40,157 nucleotides of DNA from Chloroflexota bacterium (GTDB lineage Bacteria > Chloroflexota > Limnocylindria > P2-11E). A model generated the notes under the pieces. The model had not been told where the DNA came from, ran no database searches, and was given only the letters and a program-made list of their open reading frames with translations. The position numbers and the translations under genes are program-made. Positions 7,963-32,644 of this stretch are shown here, one piece after another. The stretch is taken from the NCBI GenBank assembly GCA_005889295.1, contig VBEY01000238.1, positions 1 through 40,157 of the forward strand, in the 5' to 3' direction. The stretch's first letter is position 1, and each line of letters begins with the position of its first letter.

Positions 7963-9486
7963 CTGGCGACCACCACCCTCAACCCGCTGCGCGAGGGGCT
8001 GCGGCTCTCACGCATCCCCGAGCCCTCGACGATCGTCATCTTCGGCGGCTCGGGCGACCTCGCTCAGCGCAAGCTCATCCCCGCGCTCTACAACCTCGCG
8101 TTGCAGCGCCTCCTGCCGGCGACGTTTTCCGTCGTCGGCACCGCGCGCAAGCCGATGAGCCACGAGGAGTATCGCGAGGAGCTCCACGCCGCCGTCGCGC
8201 AGCACAGCCGGACGAGGCCACTGAACGAGGAGGTCTGGCGCAGCTTCGCCGAGCATCTGCATTTCGTCGCGACCCCTGACGACGCCGGATACGAGACGCT
8301 CCGACGCACGCTGGATCAGCTCGACTTCGCGCTGGGCACACACGCGAACCGTCTCTTCTACCTCGCGACGCCGCCCCCCGCTTACGAGCCGATCGTCAAG
8401 GCGATAGCCGAGCACCGTCTGCGAGGTCAGACCGGCTGGGCGCGCATCGTCGTCGAGAAGCCGTTTGGCCACGACCGCGAGTCGGCGCGGGCGCTCAACG
8501 AGGTGGTCCACACCGTCTTCCGCGAGGACGAGGTGTTCCGAATCGATCATTACCTGGGCAAGGAGACCGTTCAGAACATCCTCGTCCTGCGTTTCGCCAA
8601 CGGGATCTTCGAACCGATCTGGAACCGCCAGTACGTCGACCACGTGCAGATCACGGTGGCCGAGACGATCGGGGTCGAGGAGCGGGCCGGCTATTACGAG
8701 CAGGCCGGGGCGATGCGCGACATCGTCCAGAACCATCTCCTTCAGCTCCTGGCGCTCGTCTCGATGGAGCCGCCGGCCGCGTTCGACGACAAGGCGGTCC
8801 GCGACGAGAAGGTGAAGGTGATGCGCGCGCTTCGCCCGATCGCTGGGGAGGACCTTTCGACGAACGCGGTGCGGGGGCAGTACACCCGCGGCTTCATCGA
8901 GGGCGTGCCCGTGCCCGGATATCGCGAAGAACCGGGCGTCGCACCCGACTCGCGGACGGAGACCTACGTCGCGCTGAAGTCGTGGGTCGATAACTGGCGC
9001 TGGGAGGGCACACCCTTCTACCTCCGAACCGGCAAACGGCTCCCGAAGCACTCGACCGAGATCGCGATCCAGTTCCGCGTCGCGCCGCACCAGCTCTTCT
9101 CCCGCGAAGCGTTGGCGGGCCTCGAGCCGAACGCGCTCGTCCTCCGCATCCAGCCGGACGAAGGGATTTCGCTGAAGTTCGGCGCGAAGGTCCCTGTACA
9201 GGGCATCCGCATTCGCGCCGTGAACATGGACTTCGACTACGGCGCGTCCTTCATGGTCGATGCTCCGGACGCGTACGAGACGCTCATCCTCGACGCGCTC
9301 CGCGGCGACGCGACCCTGTTCACACGACACGACGAGGTCGACGAGCAGTGGGCTTTCGTCGATCCGATCATCAAAGGCTGGGGCGAGGCGCCAGGCGGGC
9401 CAGCGCTGTACGAGGCCGGCACCTGGGGTCCGGTCGAGGCGGACAACCTCATCGAACGGGACGGACGAGAGTGGCGCAAGGCGTAG
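7963..9486 (+). CDS. zwf: Glucose-6-phosphate dehydrogenase
   Basis: This enzyme makes 6-phosphogluconolactone and NADPH. The NADP-binding signature [17 protein letters not shown] lies upstream of the first in-frame conventional start (TTG at 8101), so translation must begin earlier. An in-frame TAA at 7954 bounds the frame. No ATG, GTG or TTG lies between that stop and the signature. The best candidate is CTG at 7963, 10 bases after an AAGGA ribosome site, and it gives 507 residues, the normal family size. The active-site motif [13 protein letters not shown] falls at about residues 193-205, with [10 protein letters not shown] before it and the family C-terminus after. It overlaps opcA by 16 bases. 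The function is firm; the CTG start is inferred from the frame and ribosome site. Confidence 0.95.
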
Positions 9487-10625
9487 TCGTCGACACGATG
9501 TTCTGGGGCGCCCGTCAGGGGGGCGTCGCCGCGCTCGAGCGCGAGCTGACCCGCCTGCGCCGGGCGCAGAGCGCGCACGCCCGTGAGCTGGGGCGTCCGC
9601 TCGCGCGCGCGTCGGTGCTCAACCTCATTGTGTACGCCGACCGCGAGGAGCACGCGCGTCGCGCGGCCCGAAGCATCGCGGACCTGGCGCTCCGCCATCC
9701 ATCTCGCGCGATCGTCGTTCTCGTCGACCGCGGCGCGCGCGAGGGCGTGGACAAGCGCATCGAGATGCATTGCCGGCTGCCGATCGCGGACGGCGCCCGC
9801 CTCGTTTGCTACGAGCAGATCCTCGTCCGCGCGCACGGCGACGTCGAGGATCGCCTCGCGTCCGCGGTGATCCCGCTGCTCGTGCCGGACCTTCCGGTGT
9901 TTCTCTGGTGGACCGGAACGCCGCCTCTCGGTTCGCGGTCGTTCGGCGACTTGCTGCGTCTGACCGACCGGCTTGTCGTCGACTCCGCGGACTTCGCGCG
10001 GCCCGAGCTCACGCTGCCGATCATCGCGCGCATCTCCGAGGCGGCGCGAGGACGGTTCGGGCTCACCGACCTCAATTGGACGCGTCTCACGCCCTGGCGC
10101 GAGATCGCGACAGCGTTCTTCGACGTCCCCTCGTGGCGGCTCTTTCTGGACGGTATCACCGGCCTCCGTGTCGGTTTTGCCGTCGACATGGATGGACGTG
10201 ACATCCATCCGTCGCAGGCGTTGCTGTTCGTGGGATGGCTCGCGTCGCGTCTCGGCTGGCGACCGCTCGAGACACTCGCCCCCTCAGAGGCCGGCGGACT
10301 CCTGTTCGCGATCGCGCGCCCCGACGGCGCGCGCATCATGGTCCGGGTGCGGCCACGCTTCGAACGCGGGCTCGAGGAAGGCGACATCTCCGGAATCCGC
10401 ATCCAAGCCACCAGCACGAGCGAGCTGGCGGAGTTCGTCGTGAAACGCCAGCCCTCGCCACGCCACCAAACCGCCACCGTCCTCCTGAACGGCCAGCCGC
10501 GCTGGGAGCGCACGATGCCGCTCCCGTCACCCGCGATCGTCGAGCTCATCGGTGAGGAGCTCTCGATCCTCGGGAGCGACCGAACCTACGAGGCGGCCCT
10601 CGCCGCCCTCGTCGAGCTCGCCTAG
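9471..10625 (+). CDS. opcA: OpcA, glucose-6-phosphate dehydrogenase assembly/allosteric effector
   Basis: A 384-residue protein starting at GTG 9471 inside the end of zwf. The sequence matches Opc[22 protein letters not shown], the AIVVLVDRG strand, [28 protein letters not shown] and [16 protein letters not shown] are the recognisable blocks. In cyanobacteria and actinobacteria OpcA binds Zwf and is needed for its activity, in some cases as a redox-responsive partner. The direct overlap with zwf fits a one-to-one complex. It has no catalytic motif. Cysteines are few (CRLP and CYEQ near residues 99-113), so redox control through them is only a possibility. Confidence 0.9.
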
Positions 10626-10659
10626 TCCGGTAGCACCCGAGGTGCGGACCAACGACGGT

Positions 10660-11916
10660 ATGGCCAGCGAGAAGAGGGTGCGGCGCGGCGTAGCCGAACC
10701 GGCGCGACAGCTTGCGAAGCGGTATCGCCTGATTGAGCGCATCGATGAGGGCGGGGCCGGCGAGGTGTGGCGCGCGCGCGACGAGAAGCTCGACCGCGAC
10801 GTCGCGATCAAGCTCCTCGGCCCCGATGCGGACGACGCATTCCGAGCGCGTTTCGCGGACGAGGCACGCCGCGCGGCGGCCGTCGTCCACCCCAACGTCG
10901 TCACGGTATTCGACGAGGGCCGCGACGGTGCGGACGCGTTCATGGTCATGGAGCTCGTGCCCGGAAAGACGCTCCGTGAGATCGTGGCCGAGCGCGGTCC
11001 GTTGCCTGCGCACGAGGTGGCCCGTCTCATCAGGCAGGTCGCCGGCGCACTCGACGCCGCTCACGCCGCCGGCGTCGTGCATTGCGATGTGAAGCCGGCG
11101 AACGTGATCGTCGATCGGGAGGGCGTCGCGAAGCTCACCGATTTCGGGATCGCCCGCGCGGCGCGCGACCGTGACGAGCAGGAGCTGCTCGGCACGGCGC
11201 GCTACATCGCGCCCGAGCGAGTCGAAGGTGGACAGGTCACGGCGCGCACCGACGTGTACGGCCTTGGCCTTGTCGCCTACGAGCTCCTGACGGGCCGGCC
11301 CGCGTTCGATGGCGCGACCAGCGAGGAGCTCGTGCGCGAGCGGCTTCTCGGGCCACCTCCGTCGCTCCGACTCGCGCGTGTCGGCATCGACGACCGGCTC
11401 GACGCGATCGTCGGACGCGCGCTCGCGCCAGTGCCGGACCGTCGCTACGCCAGCGCCGGTGCGTTCGCTCGAGCGTTCTCCAACGTGGCGGACGAGGACG
11501 GGGAGCCTACCTCGGCGTTGCGTTCGCTGGGCCGGGCGCGCTCGAGATCCATCAGCTGGTCGTTGCCGCGCTTCGACACCGCGGTCGCGATCCTCGCGGT
11601 GCTCGCGATCCTGCTCGCGCTCTTCCTGTTTTTCTCGTCGTTTCCGAGAGTGGCGGGGCCCGGTCCGAACCCGACCGCGGCATCGAGCGCGCCTGCGGCC
11701 GGCACGCCGAACGTCGTAGGCAAGAGACTCTCGGACGCGATCAGCGCGCTCCAGTCCGCCGGCTACCCGGTCGTCGAGTGGGCTCCCGGGCAGGGTCAGG
11801 GGAGTCAGTGTGCCGTTCTCCGGCAGGACCCGCCGGCAGGCACAGCGCTGGCGCGCGGCGCGAAAACGACCCTCTCGTACGTCCCGGGAAACGACTGCAC
11901 GAAGAAAGGGGACTAG
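10660..11916 (+). CDS. PASTA-type Ser/Thr protein kinase (PknB/Stk family)
   Basis: The 418-residue protein has a cytoplasmic Hanks kinase domain (about 20-285). This contains the Gly loop DEGGAGEVWRA, ATP-binding Lys 51 (VAIKLL), the catalytic loop HCDVKPANV (141-149), the DFG motif (161-163) and APERV. After a basic juxtamembrane stretch there is one transmembrane helix (about 303-325), then one extracytoplasmic PASTA repeat (PNVVGKRLSDAISALQSAGY). PASTA kinases sense peptidoglycan fragments or lipid II and control growth and wall synthesis; most carry several repeats, so one is minimal. The catalytic loop has Cys in place of the usual Arg (HCD, not HRD), which makes it a non-RD kinase. ATG 10660 was chosen; an in-frame GTG lies at 10642. 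A PP2C phosphatase gene follows within two bases. Confidence 0.93.
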   Translation: MASEKRVRRGVAEPARQLAKRYRLIERIDEGGAGEVWRARDEKLDRDVAIKLLGPDADDAFRARFADEARRAAAVVHPNVVTVFDEGRDGADAFMVMELVPGKTLREIVAERGPLPAHEVARLIRQVAGALDAAHAAGVVHCDVKPANVIVDREGVAKLTDFGIARAARDRDEQELLGTARYIAPERVEGGQVTARTDVYGLGLVAYELLTGRPAFDGATSEELVRERLLGPPPSLRLARVGIDDRLDAIVGRALAPVPDRRYASAGAFARAFSNVADEDGEPTSALRSLGRARSRSISWSLPRFDTAVAILAVLAILLALFLFFSSFPRVAGPGPNPTAASSAPAAGTPNVVGKRLSDAISALQSAGYPVVEWAPGQGQGSQCAVLRQDPPAGTALARGAKTTLSYVPGNDCTKKGD

Positions 11917-11918
11917 GG

Positions 11919-12713
11919 CTGGGAGCGCGAACCGCGGCACGCACCGATACCGGACGCGTGCGCGAGAACAACGAAGATCGCTACCTCGTGCGCGATGGAG
12001 GGAACACGACGCTCCTCGCGGTGGCCGACGGGGTCGGCGGCGAAGCCGGCGGGGAGATGGCGAGCGCCGCAGCGATCGACGGGCTCGCCGCGAGCTTCTT
12101 CGGCTCGGGCTCCGAACGCGCGCCCGCGGAAGCGCTGGCGGCCGCGATCCGCGGCGCGAACGACGCGGTGCTCAGCGCGGCCGGCAAGAGCGGTCAGCAG
12201 GGTGCGGCGTCGACACTGGTGGCGGCGGCGATCGCAGGCACAAGCGCGGTGATCGGCAACCTCGGCGACAGCCGCGCCTATCTCCTGCGCGACGGCGATA
12301 TCCGCCTCGTCACCGCCGATCACTCCGGCGAGTTCCAGAGCTCGATCACGAGATTCGTGGGCGATCCCCGCGGTGTGCAGCCCGACGTGTTCGTCGAGAC
12401 TCTCCGCCCTGGCGACCGGCTCCTGCTCTGCTCGGATGGCCTCACGCGACATGTGCCGGACGGGGAGATCGCTTCGACCGTGCGGCGTGCCAATCTCGAG
12501 ATGGCGGCAGCGGCCCTCATCGACCTGGCCAAGTCGCGTGGCGGCGAGGACAACATCACGGTCGTGCTCTACGCGGTTCGCCGCACGTTTGGCTTCGCCG
12601 ACGTGCGCCGGAACCTCGTCAACCTCGTGCTCGCCTTGCTCGCGTTGGTCGTCGTAGCCGGCACGATCGCCGCTCTCGTCTTCGCTAGCGGCGCGTACCC
12701 GACCGCACCGTAG
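11919..12713 (+). CDS. PP2C-type (PPM) protein phosphatase, membrane-anchored
   Basis: This is the phosphatase partner of the kinase just upstream. All metal-binding motifs are intact: ENNEDRYLV, VADGVGGEAGGE, GDSRAYLLRDG, CSDGLTRHV and GGEDNITVVLY. It is therefore an active-looking Mn/Mg phosphatase, followed by a C-terminal transmembrane helix (about 237-258) and a short tail. The frame has no ATG, GTG or TTG between the kinase stop and the conserved N-terminus. CTG at 11919 lies 6 bases after a strong AAAGGGGA site and begins LGARTAARTDTGRVRENNED, exactly where the family starts. An upstream ATG at 11778 would overlap the PASTA coding region by over 130 bases and is unlikely. Length from CTG is 264 residues. 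Its 3' end overlaps the convergent glycosyltransferase gene by 29 bases. Confidence 0.93.
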   Translation: MGARTAARTDTGRVRENNEDRYLVRDGGNTTLLAVADGVGGEAGGEMASAAAIDGLAASFFGSGSERAPAEALAAAIRGANDAVLSAAGKSGQQGAASTLVAAAIAGTSAVIGNLGDSRAYLLRDGDIRLVTADHSGEFQSSITRFVGDPRGVQPDVFVETLRPGDRLLLCSDGLTRHVPDGEIASTVRRANLEMAAAALIDLAKSRGGEDNITVVLYAVRRTFGFADVRRNLVNLVLALLALVVVAGTIAALVFASGAYPTAP

Positions 12714-15700
12714 CGAGCAGGCGGGAGAACCCCGGCGAGCCGCTCCACATGATGAGCATCGCGACTGTCGCGGCGACCGCCACCGAGAGCGCGAGCCGGC
12801 CGAAGAGCGCGACCACCGAGAAGGACGAGCCGATGGTCGGATTGCAGACGAACGTTGGATAGAACTGGCACTCGTAGGTCCACGTCGGAAGGATGAAGAA
12901 CATCCCCGCTTGTGCGCCTGGGAAGGGTTGCGCCGAGATGAACGGGTAGAAGTACGCGAAAGCCGCGGCGGCGGCTGCGAGGTAGCCGACCACCAAACGG
13001 GCCCGGCCGGTCTCCCACAGGAATGCGAGCCCCGCCGCGAGAGCGAGCAGGTAGAACGGCAGCACCGTGAAGAAGTGATAGAAGAAGAGCACGCGTCCGA
13101 TCGGGATCCACGCGACGTACTGCGCGAGGCCCGCGAATACCACGAACGCGAGCGGCACCGATCGCGCCCGGATCGCGGCGACGGCGCACCAGCAGAACGC
13201 GACCAGCCCGGCCCAGAACAGAACGACGTTGCCCGCGTCGTAGATGTACGCGTTGTCGCCGCCACTCGACGCGCCGAAATACCAGTAGACCGGTTTGAGC
13301 ACCAGTGGCCAGCTCCACCAGGGCGATCCGGCGGGATGCGGGGCGGTCAGGCTGGAGTGGTACCAGTACATCTGCTGCGTCAGCTCGACGAGGTTCCAGC
13401 CATACGGAATCGTCGGACCGCCGAACCAGCGCAGATAGCTCGCGAGGTAGATCGCGGCCGGAACTACGGCGAACGAGACAAAGAGGATGACCGCATTGAG
13501 CCCGCGGCGCGCCAGGAGGTCGAGCGGCCCGCCCGTCCCGGGCCGACCGCGCTCGTACGCTCGGGCGGTGACAGCGATCGACGCGATGAGCAAGCCGACC
13601 AGCGTGTACGCGCCCGCCCATTTCGAGGCGAGCGCCAGGCCGAACAGCACGCCGGCGATCAGCACGTCGACGAGCGCGGAGCGCCTGGGTCTGTACGCGG
13701 CGACGACGAAGTACCAGCCGGCCACGATGAGCGTCGCCACGTAGATGTCGTTCATGCCGATCCGCGCCTGCGCGAACATCGAGCCATCGAGGACGACCGC
13801 GAGACCGACGAGCGCGGGCAGCACCGCCGACGCGAACAGGCGGCGGGCGAGGAGCACAAGCAGGAAGGCGAGGAGCGCCGCGAACAGGACGCCCGGTAGC
13901 CGCCAGGCGAGGGCGTGGCGGCCGGTCTCGATGAGATCGGCTCCGCCCGGGCCCGCGACAACGAGCGTGTCGCCCTCCCCGTCCACGCCGAGCATCGAGC
14001 CGCCGACGGGGATCGACGCGTACGGCGAGGTCCCGTGCGTCTCGACGACCACGACGCGTCCTTCGTCGAGGGCATAGAGGAAATCGGTGCGCGGCACGAC
14101 CGCGAGCGCGCTCGCCCCGCTCGAGAACGTGCCGGTGCGCGGGTTCGCGAGCGGGACCGCGTCGTGTGATCCCGTCTCGAGCTCGTACACATCGAGGGTC
14201 GCGGAGTCGGCACGCGCAACGAAAACACGATTCGGCCCGAGCGCGTACGCGATGGCCGTCCCTGGGCGGCCGCCGGTGAGCGCGCGCGTCTCCTTCGCAG
14301 TCTCCGCGGAGATGACGTGCACGATCCCCTGCGGATCGAGTGCGTAAAACTCGCTGCCGTCGGTCTTGGCGGTGACCGCGACCGTCGCGATCGGGACGAT
14401 CGTGGGGTCCGCATCAAGCGTTGAGTACACGGCGAGGGATCGCGAAGTCCCGACGAGGACCCGACCGACGCTCACGGTGAACGACGTCACCGCCGGCTCT
14501 CCTACGCGCGCCCGTACCCTGCTGAAGCTCAGGTGGCCCGACGGGGTTGCGCGGATCGACGGGGTCAGATCGATCTCATCGATCTCCTGGTCGATCACCG
14601 CGAAGATTCGATCGTCGTCGATCGCGAGTCCCTGGGGCGGCCCGAGCAGCTGCGTGAGCGTCTGCGGGCTCGCTCCGCGTTCGGCGATCTGGATCGTGCC
14701 ATCCGCGAGCGCGTACACCCGCAACCCGTCGTTCGCGACCGCCGACATGACCGTGGTCGCGGGCGCACTCTCGTGTCGGGAGACTCGATCGTCGCCGAAG
14801 GCGAGGATCCCGAGCGCCATGATCTCCTTCGCGAGATGCGGGTGCGTCCACTCGTAGGGCTCACGCTGCGCGAGGAGCTCGAACGCGGTACGCGCGTGGT
14901 AGACCTCGTCGAAGTACATGTCGCGCGGCCAGTCCAGGCGGTAGCCGCGGGTCCCGAGCACCGCGAGCGCGACGAGCGCCGCGACGGTCACGTCGCGGCG
15001 GGTCGGGGCCCGGCCGGTCCCGAGCCCGGCGGGTAGGATCCACCGCCCCTCCCGCGCGGGACCGTCGACCGGGATGCTCCAGCGCGTGTCATTCTCGAGC
15101 CGGGCGTCTCCCCGCAGGAGCCGCCAGACCAAGTACGCGGCCGCGCCCAGCAACACGAGCGCGATGCCGATCTGTCCGGCCCGGCTGAAGAGCGTCGCCT
15201 CGAGGATCTGCGGGACGCGCAGGTCGACGTACTGCTCGTAGCGCGTGAAGGCGTAATAGAGCGACAGCGCGAAGGCGAGAGCGAGCACCACATACGGCGG
15301 CAGCACGCGCTTGCGCGCGGCGGCGAACGGAAGGGCGAGCGCGAACACCGGGAAGAGATACCGCTCGTGCGCGCGTGTCGGCAGGAAGTAGAACGCGAGA
15401 CCGGCCAGGACCGCGCAGGCGAGCAGCGTCGCGGTGTCCCGACGCCACCAGAGCGGAACGACCGACAAAACCAGGCCGACGACGAGCAGGACACCGCCCC
15501 AGTAGACGAGATCGGTATCCGACTTCCAGAAGTCGAAGAAGACGGACCACGCGTTGAACGCGTAGAGCGAGGTGAAGGGGTAGGTCTCGGACGCGCTGCG
15601 CACAAGGCCGACGAGCTCGGCCGCGATGCGCGTCGGGTCGACACCCCAGAACGGAACGCTCAAGGCGTATGCGGTCGCTGCGGCGCCTCCGATCACGAGA

Positions 15701-16311
15701 GCCACCGGCCGCGGGTGCGCCTCGCGGATGAACTCGAACGCCGCGGCCGCCCCGATCACCAGCAGACCGATGCCGAACTGCGGCTTCACCAGGGCCGCGA
15801 GCGCGCCGAGCGCCCCCGCGAGCAGCCAGCGTCGGGATCCGGCGGCGACGAGGGAGCCGAAGAGTGGCAGCGTCCCGACCGCGTCGACCTGCCCCCAGTA
15901 CGGTCCGGCGAAGATCGGTCCGGGCTGGAGCGACCAGAGCGCAGCGGCGGCGATGGCGGCGGTGCGCCCGGCGCTCCGCCACAAGAGGCGCGCCCCGAGC
16001 AGCGCGATGCCGACGTCTGCTGGGATGCTGATCGCTTTGACGGCGAGCCGAAGAAGCTCGCCGTCGAAGAGCGCGCCGAGAAGCCACAGGACGTACAGGA
16101 ACGCGGGTGGGTAGTCGCTGAAATAGCCCGGTTCGTAGAAGCGCCCCGGGCCGATTTCGGCGAGTCGCTCGGCCCACGCCTCGAACGTGCCGACGTCGGT
16201 CGGAAAGCCCTGCGCACGTACCGCGAGGAGACGGACGATCACGCCGATCGCGATGACGCCCACGACGAGCAGTCGCGCGCGGCGGTCGCGGCCGACGACG
16301 TCGTCGTTCAT
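12685..16311 (-). CDS. Double GT-C glycosyltransferase: N-terminal mannosyltransferase-like unit fused to a PMT with an internal beta-propeller
   Basis: The protein is 1208 residues, about twice the length of a normal protein O-mannosyltransferase. Residues 1-400 form a complete GT-C-like unit with many membrane helices; an Asp in the first outer loop (FPTDVGTFEAWAERL, about 36-50) and FYEPGYFSDYPPAFLYVLW resemble polyprenyl-phosphate-dependent mannosyltransferases. Residues 438-506 start a second enzyme of the PMT (GT39) type: MYFDEVYHARTAFELL holds the catalytic-type Asp-Glu pair (468-469), followed by WTHPHLAKEIMALGI. Instead of the usual next helix there are about 290 soluble residues (507-798) of repeated beta blades, a propeller. 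PMT resumes at AWRLPGVLFAALLAFL (802), LDGSMFAQARIGMND and WWSWPLVLKPVYWYF. It probably transfers mannose or another sugar from a lipid carrier outside the membrane. It overlaps the upstream GT-C-like gene by ATGA. Confidence 0.85.
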   Translation of the reverse strand: MNDDVVGRDRRARLLVVGVIAIGVIVRLLAVRAQGFPTDVGTFEAWAERLAEIGPGRFYEPGYFSDYPPAFLYVLWLLGALFDGELLRLAVKAISIPADVGIALLGARLLWRSAGRTAAIAAAALWSLQPGPIFAGPYWGQVDAVGTLPLFGSLVAAGSRRWLLAGALGALAALVKPQFGIGLLVIGAAAAFEFIREAHPRPVALVIGGAAATAYALSVPFWGVDPTRIAAELVGLVRSASETYPFTSLYAFNAWSVFFDFWKSDTDLVYWGGVLLVVGLVLSVVPLWWRRDTATLLACAVLAGLAFYFLPTRAHERYLFPVFALALPFAAARKRVLPPYVVLALAFALSLYYAFTRYEQYVDLRVPQILEATLFSRAGQIGIALVLLGAAAYLVWRLLRGDARLENDTRWSIPVDGPAREGRWILPAGLGTGRAPTRRDVTVAALVALAVLGTRGYRLDWPRDMYFDEVYHARTAFELLAQREPYEWTHPHLAKEIMALGILAFGDDRVSRHESAPATTVMSAVANDGLRVYALADGTIQIAERGASPQTLTQLLGPPQGLAIDDDRIFAVIDQEIDEIDLTPSIRATPSGHLSFSRVRARVGEPAVTSFTVSVGRVLVGTSRSLAVYSTLDADPTIVPIATVAVTAKTDGSEFYALDPQGIVHVISAETAKETRALTGGRPGTAIAYALGPNRVFVARADSATLDVYELETGSHDAVPLANPRTGTFSSGASALAVVPRTDFLYALDEGRVVVVETHGTSPYASIPVGGSMLGVDGEGDTLVVAGPGGADLIETGRHALAWRLPGVLFAALLAFLLVLLARRLFASAVLPALVGLAVVLDGSMFAQARIGMNDIYVATLIVAGWYFVVAAYRPRRSALVDVLIAGVLFGLALASKWAGAYTLVGLLIASIAVTARAYERGRPGTGGPLDLLARRGLNAVILFVSFAVVPAAIYLASYLRWFGGPTIPYGWNLVELTQQMYWYHSSLTAPHPAGSPWWSWPLVLKPVYWYFGASSGGDNAYIYDAGNVVLFWAGLVAFCWCAVAAIRARSVPLAFVVFAGLAQYVAWIPIGRVLFFYHFFTVLPFYLLALAAGLAFLWETGRARLVVGYLAAAAAAFAYFYPFISAQPFPGAQAGMFFILPTWTYECQFYPTFVCNPTIGSSFSVVALFGRLALSVAVAATVAMLIMWSGSPGFSRLLATVRSGTRR

Positions 16312-19550: not shown

Positions 19551-20051
19551 TCAGGAGTTCTGTTGGGGATCGTCCGGCAACGATTCGATGAACTCTTTGA
19601 ACACCGAGAGCTCGTTGTCATCGCTCGACTCAGCGGTGATCGCCGAGCGATCCAGGACCGTCTCGCTCACGAGGATGCGCGCGGAGCAGCGGACGGCGAG
19701 CGCGATGGCGTCGGACGGCCGGCAATCGACCTCGATCTCGCGATCGGCGATCTGGACGAAGACGCTTCCGTGGAAGACCCCACCCCCAGACTCGTCGGCG
19801 ACGAGATCCTTCACCACGACCCGGGTGATCTCGGCGCCGAGTTTTGTCAGCATGTCGAGGATGAGGTCGTGCGTCAGGGGACGCTCACTGGTGATGCCGG
19901 CGATGCGCGTCGCGATGCTGTACGCCTGATCTGGTCCGATCCAGATCGGCAGCAGTCGGCGCACGCCCTCGGCCTGCAGAAGGACGACGTGTTGATTGGT
20001 GAGTACGTGGACGCGCACCGACTCGACCGAACACGGCACGAGCATCGTCAC
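19551..20051 (-). CDS. Bifunctional nuclease (BFN, DUF151) domain protein
   Basis: A 166-residue protein that is nearly all BFN domain: HVVLLQAEGVRRLLPIWIGP, AYSIATRIAGITSERPLTHDL, then DCRPSDAIALAVRC and RILVSETVLD are the conserved blocks. A short acidic tail (SAITAESSDDNELSVF) contains the usual helix. Related proteins are described as nucleases or DNase/RNase-like proteins, but in most bacteria the role is unproven. It starts at GTG 20051 with a possible ATG two codons later, 51 bases after the rhomboid stop, and is followed by lysA. Confidence 0.92.
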   Translation of the reverse strand: MTMLVPCSVESVRVHVLTNQHVVLLQAEGVRRLLPIWIGPDQAYSIATRIAGITSERPLTHDLILDMLTKLGAEITRVVVKDLVADESGGGVFHGSVFVQIADREIEVDCRPSDAIALAVRCSARILVSETVLDRSAITAESSDDNELSVFKEFIESLPDDPQQNS

Positions 20052-20102: not shown

Positions 20103-20801
20103 CTAGCCGAAACGGAATCGACCCTCTTCGCGCCGCTGCCTGATGAGCAGGAGCAGCAGTATCCCCGCGACAAAGCCGAAGATGTGGGCGAAGTACGCGA
20201 TGTTCGCGGTCGCCTGATGCGCCGTGAGGCGGAGCTCGGCAAGAGCGTCGATCACTTGAAGCACGATGAAGAAGCCGATGACCACGAGGGCGGGCAGCTG
20301 CACGATCGTGATGAAGATCCCTAGGAACACGAGCGTCGAGACCCGCGCCGCGGGGAACAGCACGACGTACGCGCCGAGCACCCCGGCGATCGCTCCCGAG
20401 GCACCGACCATCGGCTCGGGTTGCACGAGCCCCTGTCCGATCGCGGCGACGATCCCGCAGAGCACGTAGAAGACGAGGTACGGCCCGCTTCCCAGACGAT
20501 CCTCGATGTTGTCGCCAAATATCCAGAGATAGACCATGTTGCCGATCACGTGTAGCCAACCGCCGTGCACGAACAGGTGCGTGACGAGCGGCGCGAAAGT
20601 GGCGAGCGTGACCTGCCCCTGCGTGATCTGGGTCGCGAACGGCGTCCAATCGAACGAGTAGCGGTCGTAGAACGCCGCGACCGCGCCCGGCTGGCGCACC
20701 AGAGTGAGAACGTAGATCCACACGAGGATGTTCGCGGCGACAAGGAGTCGGTTGACGATCGGTGTCTTCGTCGTCGGGTTCTGGTCGCGGAGCGGGATCA
20801 C
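20103..20801 (-). CDS. Rhomboid family intramembrane serine protease
   Basis: A 232-residue protein with seven predicted hydrophobic helices. The rhomboid active site is intact: catalytic Ser in GASGAIAGVLGAYVV, the oxyanion His/Asn in HLFVHGGWLHVIGNMVYLW, and the catalytic His in ANIAYFAHIFGFVAG. It would cleave membrane-anchored substrates within the bilayer. The GTG start at 20801 overlaps the stop of the pseudo-phosphatase gene (GTGA), so they are translationally coupled; the single-pass neighbour is an obvious candidate substrate, though that is speculation. Confidence 0.95.
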   Translation of the reverse strand: MIPLRDQNPTTKTPIVNRLLVAANILVWIYVLTLVRQPGAVAAFYDRYSFDWTPFATQITQGQVTLATFAPLVTHLFVHGGWLHVIGNMVYLWIFGDNIEDRLGSGPYLVFYVLCGIVAAIGQGLVQPEPMVGASGAIAGVLGAYVVLFPAARVSTLVFLGIFITIVQLPALVVIGFFIVLQVIDALAELRLTAHQATANIAYFAHIFGFVAGILLLLLIRQRREEGRFRFG

Positions 20802-22894
20802 GCGCGGAGCTCCGTCGCCACCACCTTCGATCCGTGGACCGTGAAAATCGTCCTGAGTCCCTCGGACACGTAGAACGCGCTCGGCTCAGGAAGGTTGGGC
20901 GGAAGCGCGAAACGCGCGATCTCGCCGCCGTCGCGGTTCATCTGGACGACCACTTTGTTCGGGGTGTCGAGGAAATAGATCGCACGTTGTACGTCGATGG
21001 CCTGCACGGCCGTCGGCCTTATCGGGGCTCCCCTCCATCGCGGGACGAAGTCGACCCGCGTGGCCGTGAAGGACGTCGTGAGCCGGCGGAAGCGGAGGAT
21101 GTCGCCTTGCGTCGTCACGATCCAGATGTCCTGGTCGACGGCGATCGACCGACCCGTCCCGGTCGGGATCGGATCGGTCAGGTACGCCTGCGCCCGCTGG
21201 AAACCGGTGCCCGGGAAGGACTCGTGTTTCCAGACCTGGCCGCTCGTGGCGTCGAGGACGTAGAGATTCGTGACGAACACCGCAAACGCGTCGGCCGACT
21301 TCCACGTCGACGAATCCTCGGGCGTCACGTCGGCCACGCCGGTGCCTTCGACACGCCAGACGTGTCTCTGGTCGTCGAGCGCATAGATCACTTCGCCGAG
21401 GTTCCCGACGAGGCTCGGCGCGCCGACACCCAGCGCCCCCCGTGTGAGCGCGGGGGCGACCTGCGTCGGGTCGCCGAAGATCTTCCAGAGCCGTCCCGCG
21501 CCCGGATCGGCCGCGTAGAGCCCGCTCACGTTGCCCACGAGCGCCGTCGGCTTCGCGCCAGGCGCGATGGAACGACCGTCGGGGCCAGTAACACGTGCGA
21601 GGTCGACGACCACTCCGGTGATGCGGTCGTCCAGGGCGGCGACCTGTTCGCGGAGCGTCGCGATCCGTGCCGGATCCGCGGTGGGCGAGCGCGCGGCATC
21701 CTCGAGGGCAATGCGGGCGTGATCGATCTTCTGCCGTGCCAGCTCGCTGTCGGGCGGCTTGCGGTCCGCGGCCCGCTGCGCCGCGGAGATGTCGCTCTCG
21801 ATGCCGAGGATGGCGAGCGCGTAGTCCCCGATGACGCGGTTCTGCTGGTAGTCCCGATAGGCGAGGGTGCCGATACCACCGGCCACGAGCAGGAGCAGGA
21901 CCGCGAGCAAAGAGGCGGCGCGCCGCTGACGGCGCGAGCGGTCGCGTGCCGTGTCGGGTCGGCGTGGAAGGGGGGCCGCGCGCCGCGGCATGAGCTCGAA
22001 GCCCACGGCCACGGTCTTCCCCATCGCCTTCGCGGCGGGGGCCGTGGCGGCGCCGATCGCCTGCGTGACCTTCGGACGGCGGCGCCAGATCGATTCGAAC
22101 CGTGTGCGGATGCCCTCCGCGATCACCACCTCCGTCGGCTCCGCCGCCGGCGGCTCTGGGAGGACCCGGCCCGCCGCCGCGGTCGCCGCGGTCACCTCGA
22201 TGAAGATCGCGGCCGTGCTGCCGACGACCCCGTCTGCGACCGCCCGGTTGTTGATGTGTTCGGCCGCCGCGCGCGGGTGCAGCGTGACCGCCGCGTTCTT
22301 CAGCGCCTCTGCGCCGAGGCCATCCACGAGCGCGCCCGATGCGAGGATGAGCGTGTCGCCGGGCTCGATGCTCTGCCGCCACACGTCCGGCAGAAGGTCG
22401 GCCACTCCGCCGAGCGATTCGGCCTCACGAGTCGTGGTGCGATGGACGAAGTCGGCAAGCTCGCCAGGTTCGTCTCCCGGGAGGAAGAGCCGGGCTCGCC
22501 GCACCAAGAAGACCTGCGCGGCACCGATGCGGGCCGCGTAGAGCTCGTTATTCACCACGACGGCGCAAGCGCAGTGGAGAGCAACACGCCCGTGTTGATC
22601 GCGAAGGCGCTGCGCGGCCCGGCGATTCGCTTGCCGCAACGCTTTTCGGAGCGAGACCTCGATCCCGGCCGAGAGGTCGTAGTAGTACTCCTGACGCGCG
22701 AGATCGGCGACCTCCTTCGCGATGTCGCCGCCGGCGTTCCCGTGCTGCCGCGCGACCTCGCACAGGAAGTAGAAGCGCCCCTTCGTTCGTAGCGTGGCGC
22801 CGAGAGTGGGTTCGCTGGCGACGATGACGTCAGCGGTGCCCGGTCGGAGCTCGACCGTCGTCCCGATCTTCGTCGCGAGACTCGCTTGTCGCAT
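20798..22894 (-). CDS. PP2C-like pseudo-phosphatase with transmembrane helix, coiled coil and outer beta-propeller
   Basis: A 698-residue single-pass membrane protein. Residues 1-235 have the length and strand order of a PPM phosphatase, but each metal-binding motif is altered: no NED near the start, VIVASEPTL where the first Asp motif is expected, IGAAQVFLVRRARLF in place of GDSR, ASGALVDGLG in place of SDGL, and GSTAAIFIEV in place of DNIT. It is therefore probably inactive and may bind a phosphoprotein or act as a scaffold. A basic stretch leads to a helix at about 326-345, then a coiled coil (about 350-425), then a propeller-like domain of about 270 residues ending GSKVVATELRA. It sits between DUF721 and a rhomboid protease in the dnaN operon. 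The pseudo-enzyme call is inferred from motif loss. Confidence 0.8.
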   Translation of the reverse strand: MRQASLATKIGTTVELRPGTADVIVASEPTLGATLRTKGRFYFLCEVARQHGNAGGDIAKEVADLARQEYYYDLSAGIEVSLRKALRQANRRAAQRLRDQHGRVALHCACAVVVNNELYAARIGAAQVFLVRRARLFLPGDEPGELADFVHRTTTREAESLGGVADLLPDVWRQSIEPGDTLILASGALVDGLGAEALKNAAVTLHPRAAAEHINNRAVADGVVGSTAAIFIEVTAATAAAGRVLPEPPAAEPTEVVIAEGIRTRFESIWRRRPKVTQAIGAATAPAAKAMGKTVAVGFELMPRRAAPLPRRPDTARDRSRRQRRAASLLAVLLLLVAGGIGTLAYRDYQQNRVIGDYALAILGIESDISAAQRAADRKPPDSELARQKIDHARIALEDAARSPTADPARIATLREQVAALDDRITGVVVDLARVTGPDGRSIAPGAKPTALVGNVSGLYAADPGAGRLWKIFGDPTQVAPALTRGALGVGAPSLVGNLGEVIYALDDQRHVWRVEGTGVADVTPEDSSTWKSADAFAVFVTNLYVLDATSGQVWKHESFPGTGFQRAQAYLTDPIPTGTGRSIAVDQDIWIVTTQGDILRFRRLTTSFTATRVDFVPRWRGAPIRPTAVQAIDVQRAIYFLDTPNKVVVQMNRDGGEIARFALPPNLPEPSAFYVSEGLRTIFTVHGSKVVATELRA

Positions 22895-22905: not shown

Positions 22906-23220
22906 TTACGGAGCGGAGCGACCGGGCCGGGAAGCCGGCACGGAGCGGATCTTCGCTATCCCGCTCCGTGGCGCGCGAGAGGCAAGCTCAGCGACGAGCT
23001 GTTCTTGGCGAAGCCGGATCTCGGCCGCCCATTGCGCGGTCGGGACCGCCACGACGAGGGTGCCGCCGTCCATGCGGAGGGCGGTCGTGCGTGTCGCGTC
23101 CGGGCCGATGACCGCGCACGCGACCGCGGTCCAGGCGCGCATCGCATCCGCTTTGGCGACGTCGCTATCCAGGCGAAGGGTCCGGAGCGCGCGAGCGATC
23201 GCGGCGGCGAGTGGCCTCAT
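22906..23220 (-). CDS. DUF721 (DciA-like) protein
   Basis: A 104-residue protein whose middle part carries the DUF721 pattern: KADAMRAWTAVACAVIGPDA and GGTLVVAVPTAQWAAEIRLRQEQL. DUF721/DciA is the predecessor of DnaC-type loaders and helps DnaB load at the origin; it commonly lies after recF. The ATG at 23220 overlaps the recF stop (ATGA). The tail is short, basic and rich in Ser/Pro/Arg. Function in helicase loading is inferred from family and position. Confidence 0.87.
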   Translation of the reverse strand: MRPLAAAIARALRTLRLDSDVAKADAMRAWTAVACAVIGPDATRTTALRMDGGTLVVAVPTAQWAAEIRLRQEQLVAELASRAPRSGIAKIRSVPASRPGRSAP

Positions 23221-24356
23221 CGGGGTCTGACGATCTCCGTGACCGTAGCCACCCGCCGAAGCGCTTCAGGAATGCTCGTCAGGACGGCAGCCGTGAGGAG
23301 CGCCTGCGCGCCATCGGGAAGAGCCTGGCAGAGCGCCTCGCGGTGCGCCGTATCCAGCTCCGAGAGCACGTCGTCGAACAGAAAGATCGGAGGCTCCCCG
23401 ACGTGCGCACGGATCCACTCAGCCTCGGCGAGCTTCAGCGCCAGGACGGCCGAGCGCTGCTCTCCGCGTGAGGCGAAGGTTGGCAGAGGGCGCTCGGCCA
23501 CCGCGACGGCGAGATCCTCGCGGTGTGGGCCGACAAGTGTCGTCGCTTGCCAACGCTCGCGATCCCGCTTCAGGGCGATCAAGCCGCGATAGCCCTCGGC
23601 TCGTTCCGCCGCGGTCGAGCCCTGGACCTGCCCGGCGTACGCGATGTCGGGCGCCGGATCGGCGCCGAGCGCGGCAGCCGCGGCCCGGAACGCGGGACGG
23701 AGGTCGCGCACCGCGGCCTCCCGACGAAGGGAGATCGCGGTCGCGAGCCGCACAAGCTCGGTGTCCCAGAAGGCGATCTCGCTCTCGGAGACCGGCTCCT
23801 CATCGCGTCCCGCGCGAAGCAGGGCGTTCCGTTGCGTCAGGACGTTCGCGTAGGCGCGCGTGTCGGCACGATGCGAGCGATCGACCTGCGCGATCATCGC
23901 ATCCATGTACCGCCGGCGCGCCGACGGGGCCGATGCGAGGAGATCGGTGTCCTCGGGAAAGAACGCGACGACCGCGATCGTGCCGATGACATCATCCGCC
24001 CGCCGTGGCGCCCCATCCGCGGTGTAGCGACGTGGACGACGGCGGGCATCGGCGGCGGCCGGTCCGAAGAGCGTGACCTCGAGTCGGTGCCGGTCCAGAG
24101 GGGCGGGGGCCCCAGACCCCGGAGCGGCCCGGCATGCCTCGACCGTCACTCGCGCGAGCGGAGCGCCCCAGCGGATCATCTCGGTGTCCTCGCCGGCACG
24201 CGAGGATTCCCCGCGCGCGATGACGTGCACGGCCTCGAGGATGTTCGTCTTCCCGGCACCGTTCGGACCCACAAATGCGGTAACCCCCGGGCCGAAATCG
24301 ACCCGTCGGTCTTCGTAGCTGCGGAAGTTCTCTAGTCCGATCGCGGCGACGCGCAA
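23217..24356 (-). CDS. recF: DNA replication/repair protein RecF
   Basis: A 379-residue SMC-like ABC ATPase that binds single-/double-strand junctions and helps RecR/RecO load RecA at gaps. Walker A is GPNGAGKTN (30-38), the N-terminus reads GLENFRSYEDRRVDFGPGV, the signature is FASRGEQRSAVLALKLAE and Walker B is IFLFDDVLSELD. The start is TTG 24356 with GAAGG about 10 bases upstream, 16 bases after the dnaN stop. It is part of the minus-strand run from dnaN. Confidence 0.97.
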   Translation of the reverse strand: MRVAAIGLENFRSYEDRRVDFGPGVTAFVGPNGAGKTNILEAVHVIARGESSRAGEDTEMIRWGAPLARVTVEACRAAPGSGAPAPLDRHRLEVTLFGPAAADARRRPRRYTADGAPRRADDVIGTIAVVAFFPEDTDLLASAPSARRRYMDAMIAQVDRSHRADTRAYANVLTQRNALLRAGRDEEPVSESEIAFWDTELVRLATAISLRREAAVRDLRPAFRAAAAALGADPAPDIAYAGQVQGSTAAERAEGYRGLIALKRDRERWQATTLVGPHREDLAVAVAERPLPTFASRGEQRSAVLALKLAEAEWIRAHVGEPPIFLFDDVLSELDTAHREALCQALPDGAQALLTAAVLTSIPEALRRVATVTEIVRPR

Positions 24357-24372: not shown

Positions 24373-25500
24373 TCAGGCCGGGATGCGAAGCGGCATCACC
24401 ACATGAAGATAACTGTCGTCGCCGACGATCTTGACGACTCCGGGGGCGAGGGGGCCGCCGAGCTCGAGCGCGACCTCCGGCGCCGTGAGGCTCGAGAGCG
24501 CGTCGGATACGAAACGCGAGTTGAACGCGATGGTCGTGGCCTGGCCTTCCACGGTGGCGTCGATTCGTCCCGTGTTGTCGCCGACTTCGGCAGCGTTTGC
24601 CGTGATCACGAGCGGCGGTTCATTGGAGGGATCCACCTGGAAACGCAACATGTTCGCCGCGTCGCGCGCGAAGTACGACGCCAGCCGGGTGGCCTTGAGC
24701 AGCTCTTCGCGTTGCGCCAGCACACGGGTCGAGTGGCTCGTCGGGATGACTTGCCGGTAATTGGGGAATTGACCCTCGATGATCCGCGAGACGAGATCGG
24801 CTTCGTCGGTGTGAAAGATGATCTGACTCTTGTTCGGAGTCACCAGGATATCGACGGTGGCCTCGTCGGTGTCCTCGAGAATCCGCGCTACCTCGAAGAG
24901 ACTCTTTGCGGGGATGATCACTTCGATCGCGGGGTCGACACGGTCGAGCAGACGTGCATGACGCACCGAAAGGCGATATGGGTCAGCGGCCGCCATGGTG
25001 ACGAGATCACCGGAGAACGTAGTGAGGACGCCCGTGAGCACCGGACGGCTGTCGTCAGTCGCCGCGACGAAAGCAACCTCCCCGATCATTCGCCGCAGGG
25101 TCGCCTGGGACATGCGCGTGGTCGGCTTGTCCGGGATCTGGGGGATGATCGGGAACTCCTCAGCGTCCATCCCTTTGATGTTTGCTTCGTACGGACCTGA
25201 TTTCAGGTGCAGGGTCTTCGTTCTCACATTGAGGGAGAGCTCGACGTTACCGGGTGGAAGTGAGTTCACGAAGTCGATGAAGAGCTTCGCCGGTACGGTG
25301 ATGGCGCCTTCGTCCTCGACCTTCGCTGGGACCCAGCAATTGATGCCCACCTCGAGGTTTGTGGCAGTCAGTCGAAGGCGCCCCGCGTCGGTTCGGAGCA
25401 GAACATTGCCGAGTATCGGCAAGCTGCCCCGCGTCGAGACTCCCCTTCCCGCGATTCCGAGCCCGTGCGCCAGGTTCTCTTGGAGACAAACGACCTTCAC
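24373..25500 (-). CDS. dnaN: DNA polymerase III beta subunit (sliding clamp)
   Basis: The clamp is 375 residues from GTG 25500, preceded by the strong site GGGGAGGG at ideal spacing. The next upstream start in frame (25539) would add 13 residues reaching toward oriC and lacks such a site. Recognisable parts are the first domain RGSLPILGNVLLRTDAGRLRLTATNLEVGI, KLFIDFVNSL, the domain-2 motif PVLTGVL, and the ending DDSYLHVVMPLRIPA, typical of DnaN. It forms the ring that tethers the replicase and it binds other partners. It is the first gene of the long minus-strand run. Confidence 0.97.
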   Translation of the reverse strand: MKVVCLQENLAHGLGIAGRGVSTRGSLPILGNVLLRTDAGRLRLTATNLEVGINCWVPAKVEDEGAITVPAKLFIDFVNSLPPGNVELSLNVRTKTLHLKSGPYEANIKGMDAEEFPIIPQIPDKPTTRMSQATLRRMIGEVAFVAATDDSRPVLTGVLTTFSGDLVTMAAADPYRLSVRHARLLDRVDPAIEVIIPAKSLFEVARILEDTDEATVDILVTPNKSQIIFHTDEADLVSRIIEGQFPNYRQVIPTSHSTRVLAQREELLKATRLASYFARDAANMLRFQVDPSNEPPLVITANAAEVGDNTGRIDATVEGQATTIAFNSRFVSDALSSLTAPEVALELGGPLAPGVVKIVGDDSYLHVVMPLRIPA

Positions 25501-25540
25501 GCGGCCCTCCCCGCTCGTACCCCGGAACAATAGATACAAC

Positions 25541-25804: not shown

Positions 25805-27175
25805 TCAATCGGCGTACAGCAGCTCCCGAACCGCCCCGACATCCCGTCGGAAGTCGTCGTTCTCGGCCATCTCGCGCTCGATCTTCTCGCAGCCGTGTAA
25901 CACCGTGGAGTGGTCGCGCCCCCCGAGGGCCTCGCCGATTCGAAGGAGCGGGGCTTCGGTCTCCTCGCGCATGAGGTACATCGCGATCTGGCGTGGCAGG
26001 ACGACCTGCTTGTCGCGCGCCTTGCCTTTGATCTGGTCGAGTGGGACGCCGTAGTAGCGCGCGACCGTCTCGACGATGCGCTCGGGCGAGAGGCTCTTGC
26101 GGTGCGGGTTGTACAGAAGGTTCTGAAGCATCTCCTGCGCGAGCTGGGTCGTCACCGGAACCGCCTGCAGGGTGGCGAACGCGACGATGCGGGTGAGTGC
26201 ACCCTCGAGCTCGCGGATGTTCGAGACGATCCGCTGGGCCAGAAAGTCGATCACGGGTGGGGGCACTGCAACGTTTTGCGCCTCCGCTTTCGCGCGGAGG
26301 ATCGCGATACGCGTCTCGAGATCGGGAGCCGAGATGTCCGCGATGAGGCCCCATTCGAAACGCGAGCGCAGCCGGTCTTCGAGCTGGGTGATGGCCTTTG
26401 GCGGTCGGTCGCTCGACATGACGATCTGCTTGCCCTCTTCGTGGATCGCGTTGAACGTGTGGAAGAACTCCTCTTGCGTGCCCTCCTTGCCGGCGATGAA
26501 CTGGATGTCGTCGATGAGGAGGACATCGATACGGCGGTAGCGTTCGCGGAACTCCTCGCCCTTTTGCGCACGGATCGAGTTGATGAACTCGTTCGTGAAC
26601 TTTTCGCTGGTCGCGTACGCGACGCGCTTCTTCGGGTGGCGCGCGATCACCGCGTGTCCGATCGCGTGCATCAGATGCGTCTTGCCGAGTCCCGAGCCGC
26701 CGTAGACGAAGAGCGGGTTGTAGCTGTGGCCCGGCCGCTCGGCCACGGACAAGGCGGCAGCGTGAGCGAGACGGTTGTTCGAGCCCACCACGAAGGTCGA
26801 GAAGGTGTAGCGCGCGTTCAGCAGGGCGCCGGCCTCGCGCCGCTCTTGCCCGCCTGCCTGCTGGCCCGGCCCAGAGGCCGGCGCCGCCATCCCCGGGGCG
26901 GCGCTCGTGCGTGCGCCCGCCGAGGAAGTGCCGGAAGACGTTACGAACCGGACGTCGACGGTGCGTCCGAGGAGGTGCTGCAGCGCGGCACGTACCTGGG
27001 GTCGGAATTTGCTCTCGAGCCACTCGCGCGCGAACGCATTAGGCACGCCGATGAGGAAGACGTCGTCCTCTTCGGAGACGACCTGTGTGTCCTTGAACCA
27101 GGTGTCGTACTGCGCACGCGAAAGCCCGACCTGCAACTCACCGAGGGCGGCCGTCCAAAGCTGTTTGAGGTTCAA
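25805..27175 (-). CDS. dnaA: Chromosomal replication initiator DnaA
   Basis: DnaA has 456 residues from TTG 27175, which follows a good AGAAGGGGAG site; the longer frame to 27277 lacks DnaA-like sequence. Domain I (LKQLWTAALGELQVGLSRAQ ...) is followed by a short Ala/Gly/Pro-rich linker, then the AAA+ domain with Walker A GGSGLGKTH (159-167) and Walker B VLLIDDIQF (218-226). The C-terminal DNA-binding domain has the signature GRDHSTVLHGCEKI after RQIAMYLMREETEAPL. It binds the boxes in oriC immediately downstream of its own 3' end. It is divergent from rpmH. Confidence 0.97.
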   Translation of the reverse strand: MNLKQLWTAALGELQVGLSRAQYDTWFKDTQVVSEEDDVFLIGVPNAFAREWLESKFRPQVRAALQHLLGRTVDVRFVTSSGTSSAGARTSAAPGMAAPASGPGQQAGGQERREAGALLNARYTFSTFVVGSNNRLAHAAALSVAERPGHSYNPLFVYGGSGLGKTHLMHAIGHAVIARHPKKRVAYATSEKFTNEFINSIRAQKGEEFRERYRRIDVLLIDDIQFIAGKEGTQEEFFHTFNAIHEEGKQIVMSSDRPPKAITQLEDRLRSRFEWGLIADISAPDLETRIAILRAKAEAQNVAVPPPVIDFLAQRIVSNIRELEGALTRIVAFATLQAVPVTTQLAQEMLQNLLYNPHRKSLSPERIVETVARYYGVPLDQIKGKARDKQVVLPRQIAMYLMREETEAPLLRIGEALGGRDHSTVLHGCEKIEREMAENDDFRRDVGAVRELLYAD

Positions 27176-27400
27176 CGGCTCCCCTTCTCTTCGCTCGTGC
27201 AACAAAAGCTCCCCACAAACCATCGCGCGATGACCGCCGCCCTGCGCCACACCGAAGGGAAAGACCGAGGGATCCAACGCCCGCTTTCGGAAGCCCGCGA
27301 ACTATACCCCAAGGAGAAGACGCCGCGTCTACTGCTATGCTCATGTGCACACATCGTTGTTTTTTGATCGTTTTGTTTCAGCGGGAGAAGGGACTCGACC
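27176..27400. promoter_or_regulatory. dnaA/rpmH divergent promoter region
   Basis: This 225-base gap separates two divergent essential transcription units. A likely minus-strand -10 for dnaA is TATAGT (27306-27301), and a plus-strand TATGCT at 27336-27341 could serve rpmH; neither has a clear -35. A T-rich tract (27353-27380) lies just before the rpmH ribosome site. A single weak DnaA-box-like sequence (CTCCCCACA, 27211-27219) could allow autoregulation. Evidence is short-motif only. Confidence 0.45.
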
Positions 27401-32279: not shown

Positions 32280-32632
32280 GGGGATGCGTGGTTTCGACAG
32301 GGCAGGCAGACGGACCGCCGCGAGCCGAGGAACGCCGTTCCTCCTCGTTAATCCGAACGGCAGGCAGACAACTGCCAACACTTCGTACGCTCTCGCTGCC
32401 TAGTCAGTGAGACGTCCTCCCGGTCTCCGCTCCGCGGGCCGGGAAGGGCGATATAAGCGGAGCTGCGGCCCGCCAATCGGCCGGTAGGCGGGCTCAAGTG
32501 AACCGACCTGGCGAGAACGGGGAGCGTGTCGGTGCGCGCCTCGTTCCGCGAGACCAAAGTTCGCCGACTACGCTCGTAGACGCGATCCGCGCGCAAGCCC
32601 TGGACGGGGAGTTCGACCCTCCCCCATCTCCA
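32280..32632 (+). ncRNA. ssrA: Transfer-messenger RNA (tmRNA)
   Basis: The 5' end GGGGATGCGTGGTTTCGACAGGG has the universal tmRNA start: seven acceptor bases GGGGATG, then the D-like GTGGTTTCGACAGGG. The 3' end has a T arm (stem GGGGAG / CTCCCC around TTCGACC, 32606-32624) and the acceptor strand CATCTCC (32625-32631), which pairs with all seven 5' bases (one G-U). CCA is not encoded: the next genome bases are ACA. The tag frame ends with TAC GCT CTC GCT GCC TAG, giving YALAA and a stop at 32401. The best resume codon is GCC 32374, giving ANTSYALAA. tmRNA with SmpB frees stalled ribosomes and adds the tag for proteolysis. It is not protein coding and is absent from ORF-based lists. Confidence 0.95.
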
Positions 32633-32644
32633 CAGAATCGTCGG

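Follow-up and report, generated by a model that had tools for sequence, protein, structure and literature searches.

Proteins that combine a kinase, a transmembrane (TM) helix and an NHL domain are known, PknD being an example, and TAB1 is a eukaryotic pseudophosphatase of the PPM fold. PHLPP2 is also a eukaryotic PPM pseudophosphatase (PMC12002173), and pseudokinases are an accepted class of bacterial proteins (PMC12599244). Bacterial PP2Cs bind two catalytic metals through the Asps of motifs 2, 8 and 11 and a third metal through the Asp of motif 5, and in their motif 1 a Gly, an Arg and an Asp are conserved (PMC12088040); the motif-1 Arg aids substrate binding in tPphA (PMC3375153). We found no description of a bacterial PPM-type pseudophosphatase in the literature searched, the coverage of which was limited. 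The words inactive, propeller and NHL are absent from a 2025 survey of 3,573 bacterial PP2C sequences (PMC12088040), and a text search of the literature found no paper on Limnocylindria and PP2C. Here we describe a gene, referred to as X, on contig VBEY01000238.1 of a Chloroflexota bacterium of the class Limnocylindria, within a stretch of 40,157 nucleotides that we call the window. X starts with ATG and encodes a protein of 698 amino acids (aa). On balance, we favour the reading that X is a single-pass membrane pseudophosphatase acting as a receptor or scaffold, its dead domain binding a cytosolic partner rather than working as an enzyme. The gene and its parts are:

20798..22894, minus strand: gene X, predicted pseudo-PPM domain, TM helix, helical bundle and propeller, 698 aa; found in all 61 class genomes
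22175..22894, minus strand: PPM/PP2C-fold domain predicted to lack the catalytic metal site, residues 1-240 (AlphaFold2, Foldseek, profile against PDB, hhalign; ratio of nonsynonymous to synonymous substitution rates, dN/dS, 0.04-0.14)
21920..22174, minus strand: cytosolic linker, residues 241-325, basic ahead of the membrane (sequence)
21863..21919, minus strand: TM helix, residues 326-344, N-terminus inside by the positive-inside rule (hydropathy 2.32)
21617..21862, minus strand: three-helix bundle outside the membrane, residues 345-426, the fastest-evolving part (AlphaFold2; dN/dS 0.32-0.50)
20801..21613, minus strand: six-bladed NHL-like propeller, residues 428-698 (AlphaFold2 with a predicted local distance difference test score, pLDDT, of 94.3; Foldseek; profile)

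Searched as a single sequence, the X protein had no match in Pfam at E<=10 and none in PDB by phmmer, and NCBIfam returned Stp1 PP2C alone (E=0.002). Because the single-sequence Pfam search was empty, a profile route was needed. We aligned X of the window with 37 relatives, giving 38 sequences (A1 for the full length, A2 for the N-domain and A3 for the C-domain). With the N-domain profile, a PDB search returned tPphA (E=2.1e-7) and Stp1-type entries (about 2e-4), and hhalign aligned residues 38-239 of the X N-domain with the profile of the same genome's PP2C (probability 98.5, E=3.4e-15). AlphaFold2 modelled residues 1-240 with a pLDDT of 85.6 and a predicted template modelling score (pTM) of 0.86; a Foldseek search with this model returned the bacterial PP2Cs tPphA (E=2.5e-13), PppA, PstP and Stp1 at TM-scores of about 0.61-0.76. 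Models, Foldseek and profiles all place the PPM beta-sandwich with its flanking helix pairs in the N-domain. A sequence-only reading of this gene had proposed a PPM-like fold with length and strand order kept, and had named structure prediction against PPM enzymes as a check; the prediction returned the PPM fold and no different fold, in agreement with that proposal. NCBIfam matches to CIS12_fam in seven members were dropped, not recurring when the members were scanned individually. We also dropped the element YYYDxSAG as a newly evolved interface, because intact PP2Cs of the phylum also carry a YYxDxS-like element.

The motif positions of X were mapped by hhalign against the genome's own PP2C and surveyed over the 38 class sequences:

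22829..22846, minus strand: motif 1, R17...D22, retained (Arg and Asp of RxxNED; hhalign global alignment, strand order)
22754..22759, minus strand: motif 2 site, DG replaced by E46-V47 (no D in the class; E, T, Q, A or H instead)
22514..22525, minus strand: motif 5 site, GDSR replaced by G124-A125-A126-Q127 (mostly P or A; D in 3/38)
22331..22339, minus strand: motif 8 site, SDG replaced by S186-G187-A188 (D at 187 in 0/38)
22217..22222, minus strand: motif 11 site, DN replaced by G225-S226 (D at 225 in 0/38)

Motifs 2, 8 and 11 are replaced in 38/38 class sequences, the ligand position of motifs 8 and 11 never being Asp and that of motif 2 being E, T, Q, A or H. In the window all four of motifs 2, 5, 8 and 11 are replaced, in support of a dead domain. 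The genome's intact PP2C and most of the relatives' PP2Cs retain these four motifs. Motif 1 behaves differently: D22 opens strand 2, as its counterpart does in PP2Cs, and is D in 34/38 and E in 3/38 sequences; nearly all of the 38 have an Arg 4-6 residues ahead of this position (R-x4/5-D/E in 32/38). The sequence-only reading held that every metal-binding Asp motif was lost, which is correct by hhalign for motifs 2, 5, 8 and 11 but not for motif 1, where D22 and R17 are largely retained. Going by the aligned residues, the Asps of motifs 2, 5, 8 and 11 that mark an active PP2C are missing and the motif-1 Arg and Asp are there, and we do not claim that X belongs to the active PP2Cs. With a PPM fold, no catalytic metal set and purifying selection, the N-domain is, as far as alignment and model tell, a PPM pseudophosphatase, and the fold together with the loss of metal ligands supports the earlier proposal to that effect.

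The same residues bear on whether X could have stayed an enzyme by rebuilding its active site, as a phosphatase or another hydrolase that uses a different metal set. The retained motif-1 Asp would suit such an enzyme, as would the E that stands for the motif-2 D both in the window's family and in many members across the phylum and the D found near motif 11 in 29/38 sequences (a D two positions past the motif-11 site is common elsewhere in the class). However, motif 2 varies between E, T, Q, A and H inside one class, motifs 5 (P/A) and 8 (R/G/P/S) have no conserved ligand in the class, and the invariant residues of X (G11, P29, R36, G39, D73, S75, G77, W172 and others) do not make a PP2C-like ligand set. 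We consider a rebuilt enzyme very improbable.

We compared X of the window with three relatives of the same genus at 70-87% identity. The dN/dS values of the PPM domain were 0.038, 0.083 and 0.140, as compared to 0.072, 0.183 and 0.154 for RecF, 0.079-0.312 for the propeller and 0.32-0.50 for the outer helices. Constraint is therefore strongest in the PPM domain of X, which rules this domain out as a decaying remnant. Among the 38 sequences, with identity down to 32%, there are 15 invariant columns.

A single-sequence search found X in 59 of the 61 class genomes (the window's own and 60 relatives) and a profile search found it in the remaining two, giving 61/61, a recurrence far beyond chance. 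The two genomes missed by the single sequence are reduced genomes of 1.1-1.2 Mb in family f5, in one of which (G035) X is at the usual locus. That X is kept at the same locus in class genomes of 1.1 Mb supports a working role as receptor or scaffold. Four loci deserve separate mention. Genome G053 has two different copies of X (L055 and L056), each followed by the BFN-domain gene described below, possibly a strain mixture in the metagenome-assembled genome (MAG); the L056 copy has GDAD at motif 5 and the best score of the class against Stp1 (E=1.7e-8). In genome G014, X (L069:5611-7605, minus strand) holds a run of N, an assembly gap, and the distance between dciA and X is about 3 kb, unlike all relatives. 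Locus L219, in a record titled Solirubrobacteraceae MAG, carries a class-type X gene; misbinning or mislabelling of the contig is the most likely cause.

The A1 profile matched in 194/301 phylum genomes. We read 38 loci outside the class: 31, complete or near-complete, have matches to the N-domain as well as to the propeller region, six encode intact PP2Cs without a propeller match, and a contig end truncates the last one. Missing from the degenerate relatives in the phylum are the motif-2 DG, the GDSR, the DG pattern of motif 8 and the DN of motif 11, which rules out a loss confined to the window's genus or class. A tree of 57 N-domains gathers the 16 PP2C-type rows in a single clade with 100/100 support, apart from all degenerate rows; with the root of the tree not fixed and several degenerate rows long-branched, one ancient loss of the metal site is the simplest reading. 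By these profile and motif comparisons the X family is an old pseudophosphatase family without a Pfam entry, spread through the phylum Chloroflexota. The six intact PP2Cs (L138:6087-8498, minus strand, L139, L145, L161, L164 and L165) have one TM helix and high N-domain scores against the X profile, and most have about 440 extra residues of unassigned kind. None of the loci read outside the class has dnaA, dnaN, recF, dciA or a PASTA-type kinase near the X relative. Clustering of the neighbours returned no conserved pathway partner outside the class; it returned housekeeping genes such as those for aspartyl-tRNA synthetase, initiation factor IF-3, TsaD and glycosyltransferases, and MoxR AAA ATPases in some families. 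At four loci in families f14/f27 (L146, L152, L159 and L171) the next gene downstream of the X relative, on the same strand, is that for the MoxR-type AAA ATPase.

The hydrophobic helix of X is present in 38/38 class sequences. Eight K/R residues occur in the 15 residues preceding helix 326-344 and two after it, and by the positive-inside rule the PPM domain should be cytosolic and the propeller outside. In the AlphaFold2 model of the C-terminal part (pLDDT 94.3), three helices lead into a six-bladed propeller with four-stranded blades. The sequence-only reading had placed a helix, a coiled coil and a propeller across the membrane; the single TM helix and the outer propeller agree with this, but the coiled coil is modelled as a three-helix bundle. 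Foldseek matched the propeller to the TRIM71/Lin41 NHL domain and the designed Pizza6 at E of about 4e-9, the C-domain profile matched Pizza, NHL and PknD propellers in PDB (one blade to 1rwi, E=6.7e-6, a weak match), and Pfam NHL appeared, weakly, in 3/38 members. Since the PDB survey gave generic NHL relatives alone, no ligand can be named.

In one of the 61 class genomes the outer part of X occurs on a different head. Genome G028 encodes a 951-aa protein (L040:4503-7355, plus strand) with a part resembling Wzz and bacterial tyrosine kinases (BY-kinases), followed by a C-terminal TM helix, a helical region and a propeller; its outer part is homologous to X residues of about 330-700 (159.6 bits). 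An open reading frame (ORF) for an O-antigen-ligase-like membrane protein follows this gene. The fusion hints that the outer module may be a portable sensor for phospho-regulated envelope functions.

The propeller, helices and single TM helix would equally make a tether, and X could be a passive structural anchor with a wall-binding propeller and a cytosolic dock but no signalling role. As set out below, the family does not require kinases, which is consistent with a tether. A conserved PPM fold is an odd choice for a pure tether, and we regard the passive anchor as doubtful.

If X is a receptor or scaffold, its outer-face propeller would bind a ligand or protein of the cell surface or derived from the wall, position or conformation would be carried across the membrane by the three helices and the one TM helix, and the PPM-fold domain, which could not hold the catalytic metals, would serve as a conserved protein-binding surface inside the cell. 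The retained motif-1 Arg/Asp pocket possibly serves this binding. That X passes an outer signal inward, as the sequence-only reading suggested, is plausible from the architecture. Several points weigh against the receptor or scaffold. X has no known partner, ligand or phenotype, and the housekeeping neighbours of its relatives outside the class give no pathway. The R17/D22 pocket is a putative one, and sequence alone may leave room for an unusual metal site by analogy with PHLPP2, which is likewise inactive and still binds zinc (PMC12002173). The receptor or scaffold reading and its rivals overlap, and the likelihoods we give them are not exclusive.

In the window, X lies within a run of minus-strand genes in the order dnaA, dnaN, recF, dciA, X, rhomboid, BFN-domain gene and a LysA-type decarboxylase gene (Pfam):

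25805..27277, minus strand: dnaA (PF00308, E=1.1e-75)
24373..25539, minus strand: dnaN (PF00712/02767/02768)
23217..24356, minus strand: recF (PF02463)
22906..23220, minus strand: dciA, helicase operator, adjoining X upstream (PF05258, formerly DUF721, E=4.7e-11)
20103..20801, minus strand: rhomboid protease, overlapping the X stop by GTGA; at 20/38 class loci (PF01694, E=1.5e-33)
19551..20051, minus strand: BFN-domain protein, the next conserved gene downstream of X (PF02577, E=1.3e-32)

X starts about 10 nt past the dciA stop, and the X/rhomboid and recF/dciA overlaps are GTGA and ATGA. This tight packing of the recF-dciA-X-rhomboid junctions suggests that X and its packed neighbours are co-transcribed. 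RecF precedes X on the same strand in 38/38 class loci with upstream sequence, the BFN-domain gene follows X in 35/35 loci not cut by a contig end, and the rhomboid gene is present in 20/38. Pfam matches confirm dciA in families f3 and f5 as well. The position of X between a DUF721-like gene and a rhomboid gene and its place in the dnaN-recF cluster had been put forward from the sequence, with co-occurrence in the dnaN neighbourhood of related genomes named as a check, and each holds on these class data.

This gene order is the basis for supposing that X is a replication or cell-cycle checkpoint that anchors or inhibits DciA, DnaN or RecF at the membrane according to envelope state. The operon-like packing with dnaN-recF-dciA, kept in 38/38 loci in the class and in its 1.1-Mb genomes, would be expected of a checkpoint. 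Relatives in other classes, however, are unlinked to replication genes, X has no replication-type motif, and the dnaA-dnaN region gathers unrelated genes in many bacteria. We regard the checkpoint as rather improbable. The cell-cycle coupling that the sequence-only reading had hinted at is correspondingly weak: it has the gene order with dnaN inside the class on its side, and the location of relatives elsewhere among unrelated housekeeping genes against it.

A second pair of genes in the window lies 8-10 kb from X on the opposite strand:

10552..11916, plus strand: PASTA Ser/Thr kinase (PF00069, PF03793), a candidate partner of X only
11778..12713, plus strand: intact PP2C with a TM helix, the control for the motifs (PF13672, E=1.1e-20); its ORF overlaps the kinase and the real start is probably later

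Directly upstream of the kinase is the gene for OpcA, the glucose-6-phosphate dehydrogenase assembly protein (9348-10625, plus strand). Elsewhere in the window, positions 12685-16311 (minus strand) encode one 1208-aa chain combining GT87-like and PMT-like mannosyltransferase regions, and a transfer-messenger RNA gene with the tag ANTSYALAA is found at 32280-32633 (plus strand). Most genomes of the window's order have the kinase/PP2C pair about 8-12 kb from X, and the wider dnaA region is syntenic there.

X might relay an outer signal to Ser/Thr phospho-signalling together with this kinase and PP2C, for example by shielding phosphoproteins or by regulating a kinase as TAB1 does. The proximity of the pair within the order is consistent with such a relay, as are the presence of Hanks kinases in 61/61 class genomes and the largely retained motif-1 Arg and Asp, of which the Arg helps PP2Cs to bind substrate (PMC3375153). 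The pair, however, is near X only in the window's order, and no kinase is near X in other classes. Among 32 class genomes outside the order, three have a true PP2C and 29 have X but no recognisable PP2C; weak PP2C matches in G034, G049 and G053 are X itself and were not counted. Twenty-three phylum genomes, including the single-contig G081, match the X profile and have no Hanks kinase at E<=1e-10, these genomes matching mainly through the propeller, with the PPM part not proven in all. We read six of their loci in full, and five show a clear degenerate PPM domain at 26-51 bits (L152, L153, L160, L171 and L172), the sixth (L167) being weak. By hhalign the degenerate PPM domain of the L160 group matches PP2C at E=7e-14 and X of the class at 6e-19. 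The many genomes with X and without a PP2C or Hanks kinase indicate that the family as a whole is independent of both. This argues against partnership with the kinase/PP2C pair as a general function, and the sequence-only suggestion that X acts in concert with the pair does not hold for the family; within this class it could still apply. We consider the relay through this pair unlikely.

The X family probably represents undescribed dead-enzyme membrane adaptors, found here in a class of uncultured soil bacteria. It is conserved through the phylum, stands beside replication genes in one class and is kept in 1.1-Mb genomes, and it likely matters to its hosts. We also put forward, as a speculative proposal, that these are phylum-wide, unnamed transmembrane pseudophosphatase receptors, that their dead PPM domain has served since early Chloroflexota as a module that binds proteins and transmits signals, that the propeller was swapped between heads (pseudo-PPM and BY-kinase), and that in one class the receptor was captured by the dnaN-recF-dciA operon, coupling envelope state to replication. 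The family would lend itself to testing whether dead phosphatases serve bacteria as receptors.

Set against known systems, X shares with the bacterial PP2C/PPM enzymes tPphA, PstP and Stp1 the fold, strand order, domain length and motif-1 Arg and Asp, and with PstP also the single TM helix and an outer domain. It differs from the bacterial PP2Cs in lacking the metal-holding Asps of motifs 2, 5, 8 and 11, in forming a separate branch of the tree and in its outer six-bladed propeller. In PHLPP2 (PMC12002173) and TAB1, as in X, the PPM fold is kept, the catalytic metal site is lost and the domain is retained by selection. Those two, unlike X, are cytosolic eukaryotic proteins with PH/LRR parts or kinase-binding tails and no TM helix or propeller, and PHLPP2 keeps a zinc site. 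PknD of Mycobacterium tuberculosis has the same layout as X, with a cytosolic phospho-signalling head, one TM helix and an outer six-bladed NHL propeller; its head is an active Ser/Thr kinase whereas that of X would be a dead phosphatase, and the match of the X propeller to PknD is generic NHL. The Wzz/BY-kinase fusion of G028 has a homologous TM helix, helices and propeller, and differs from X in its head, a tyrosine-kinase-like P-loop protein of polysaccharide export.

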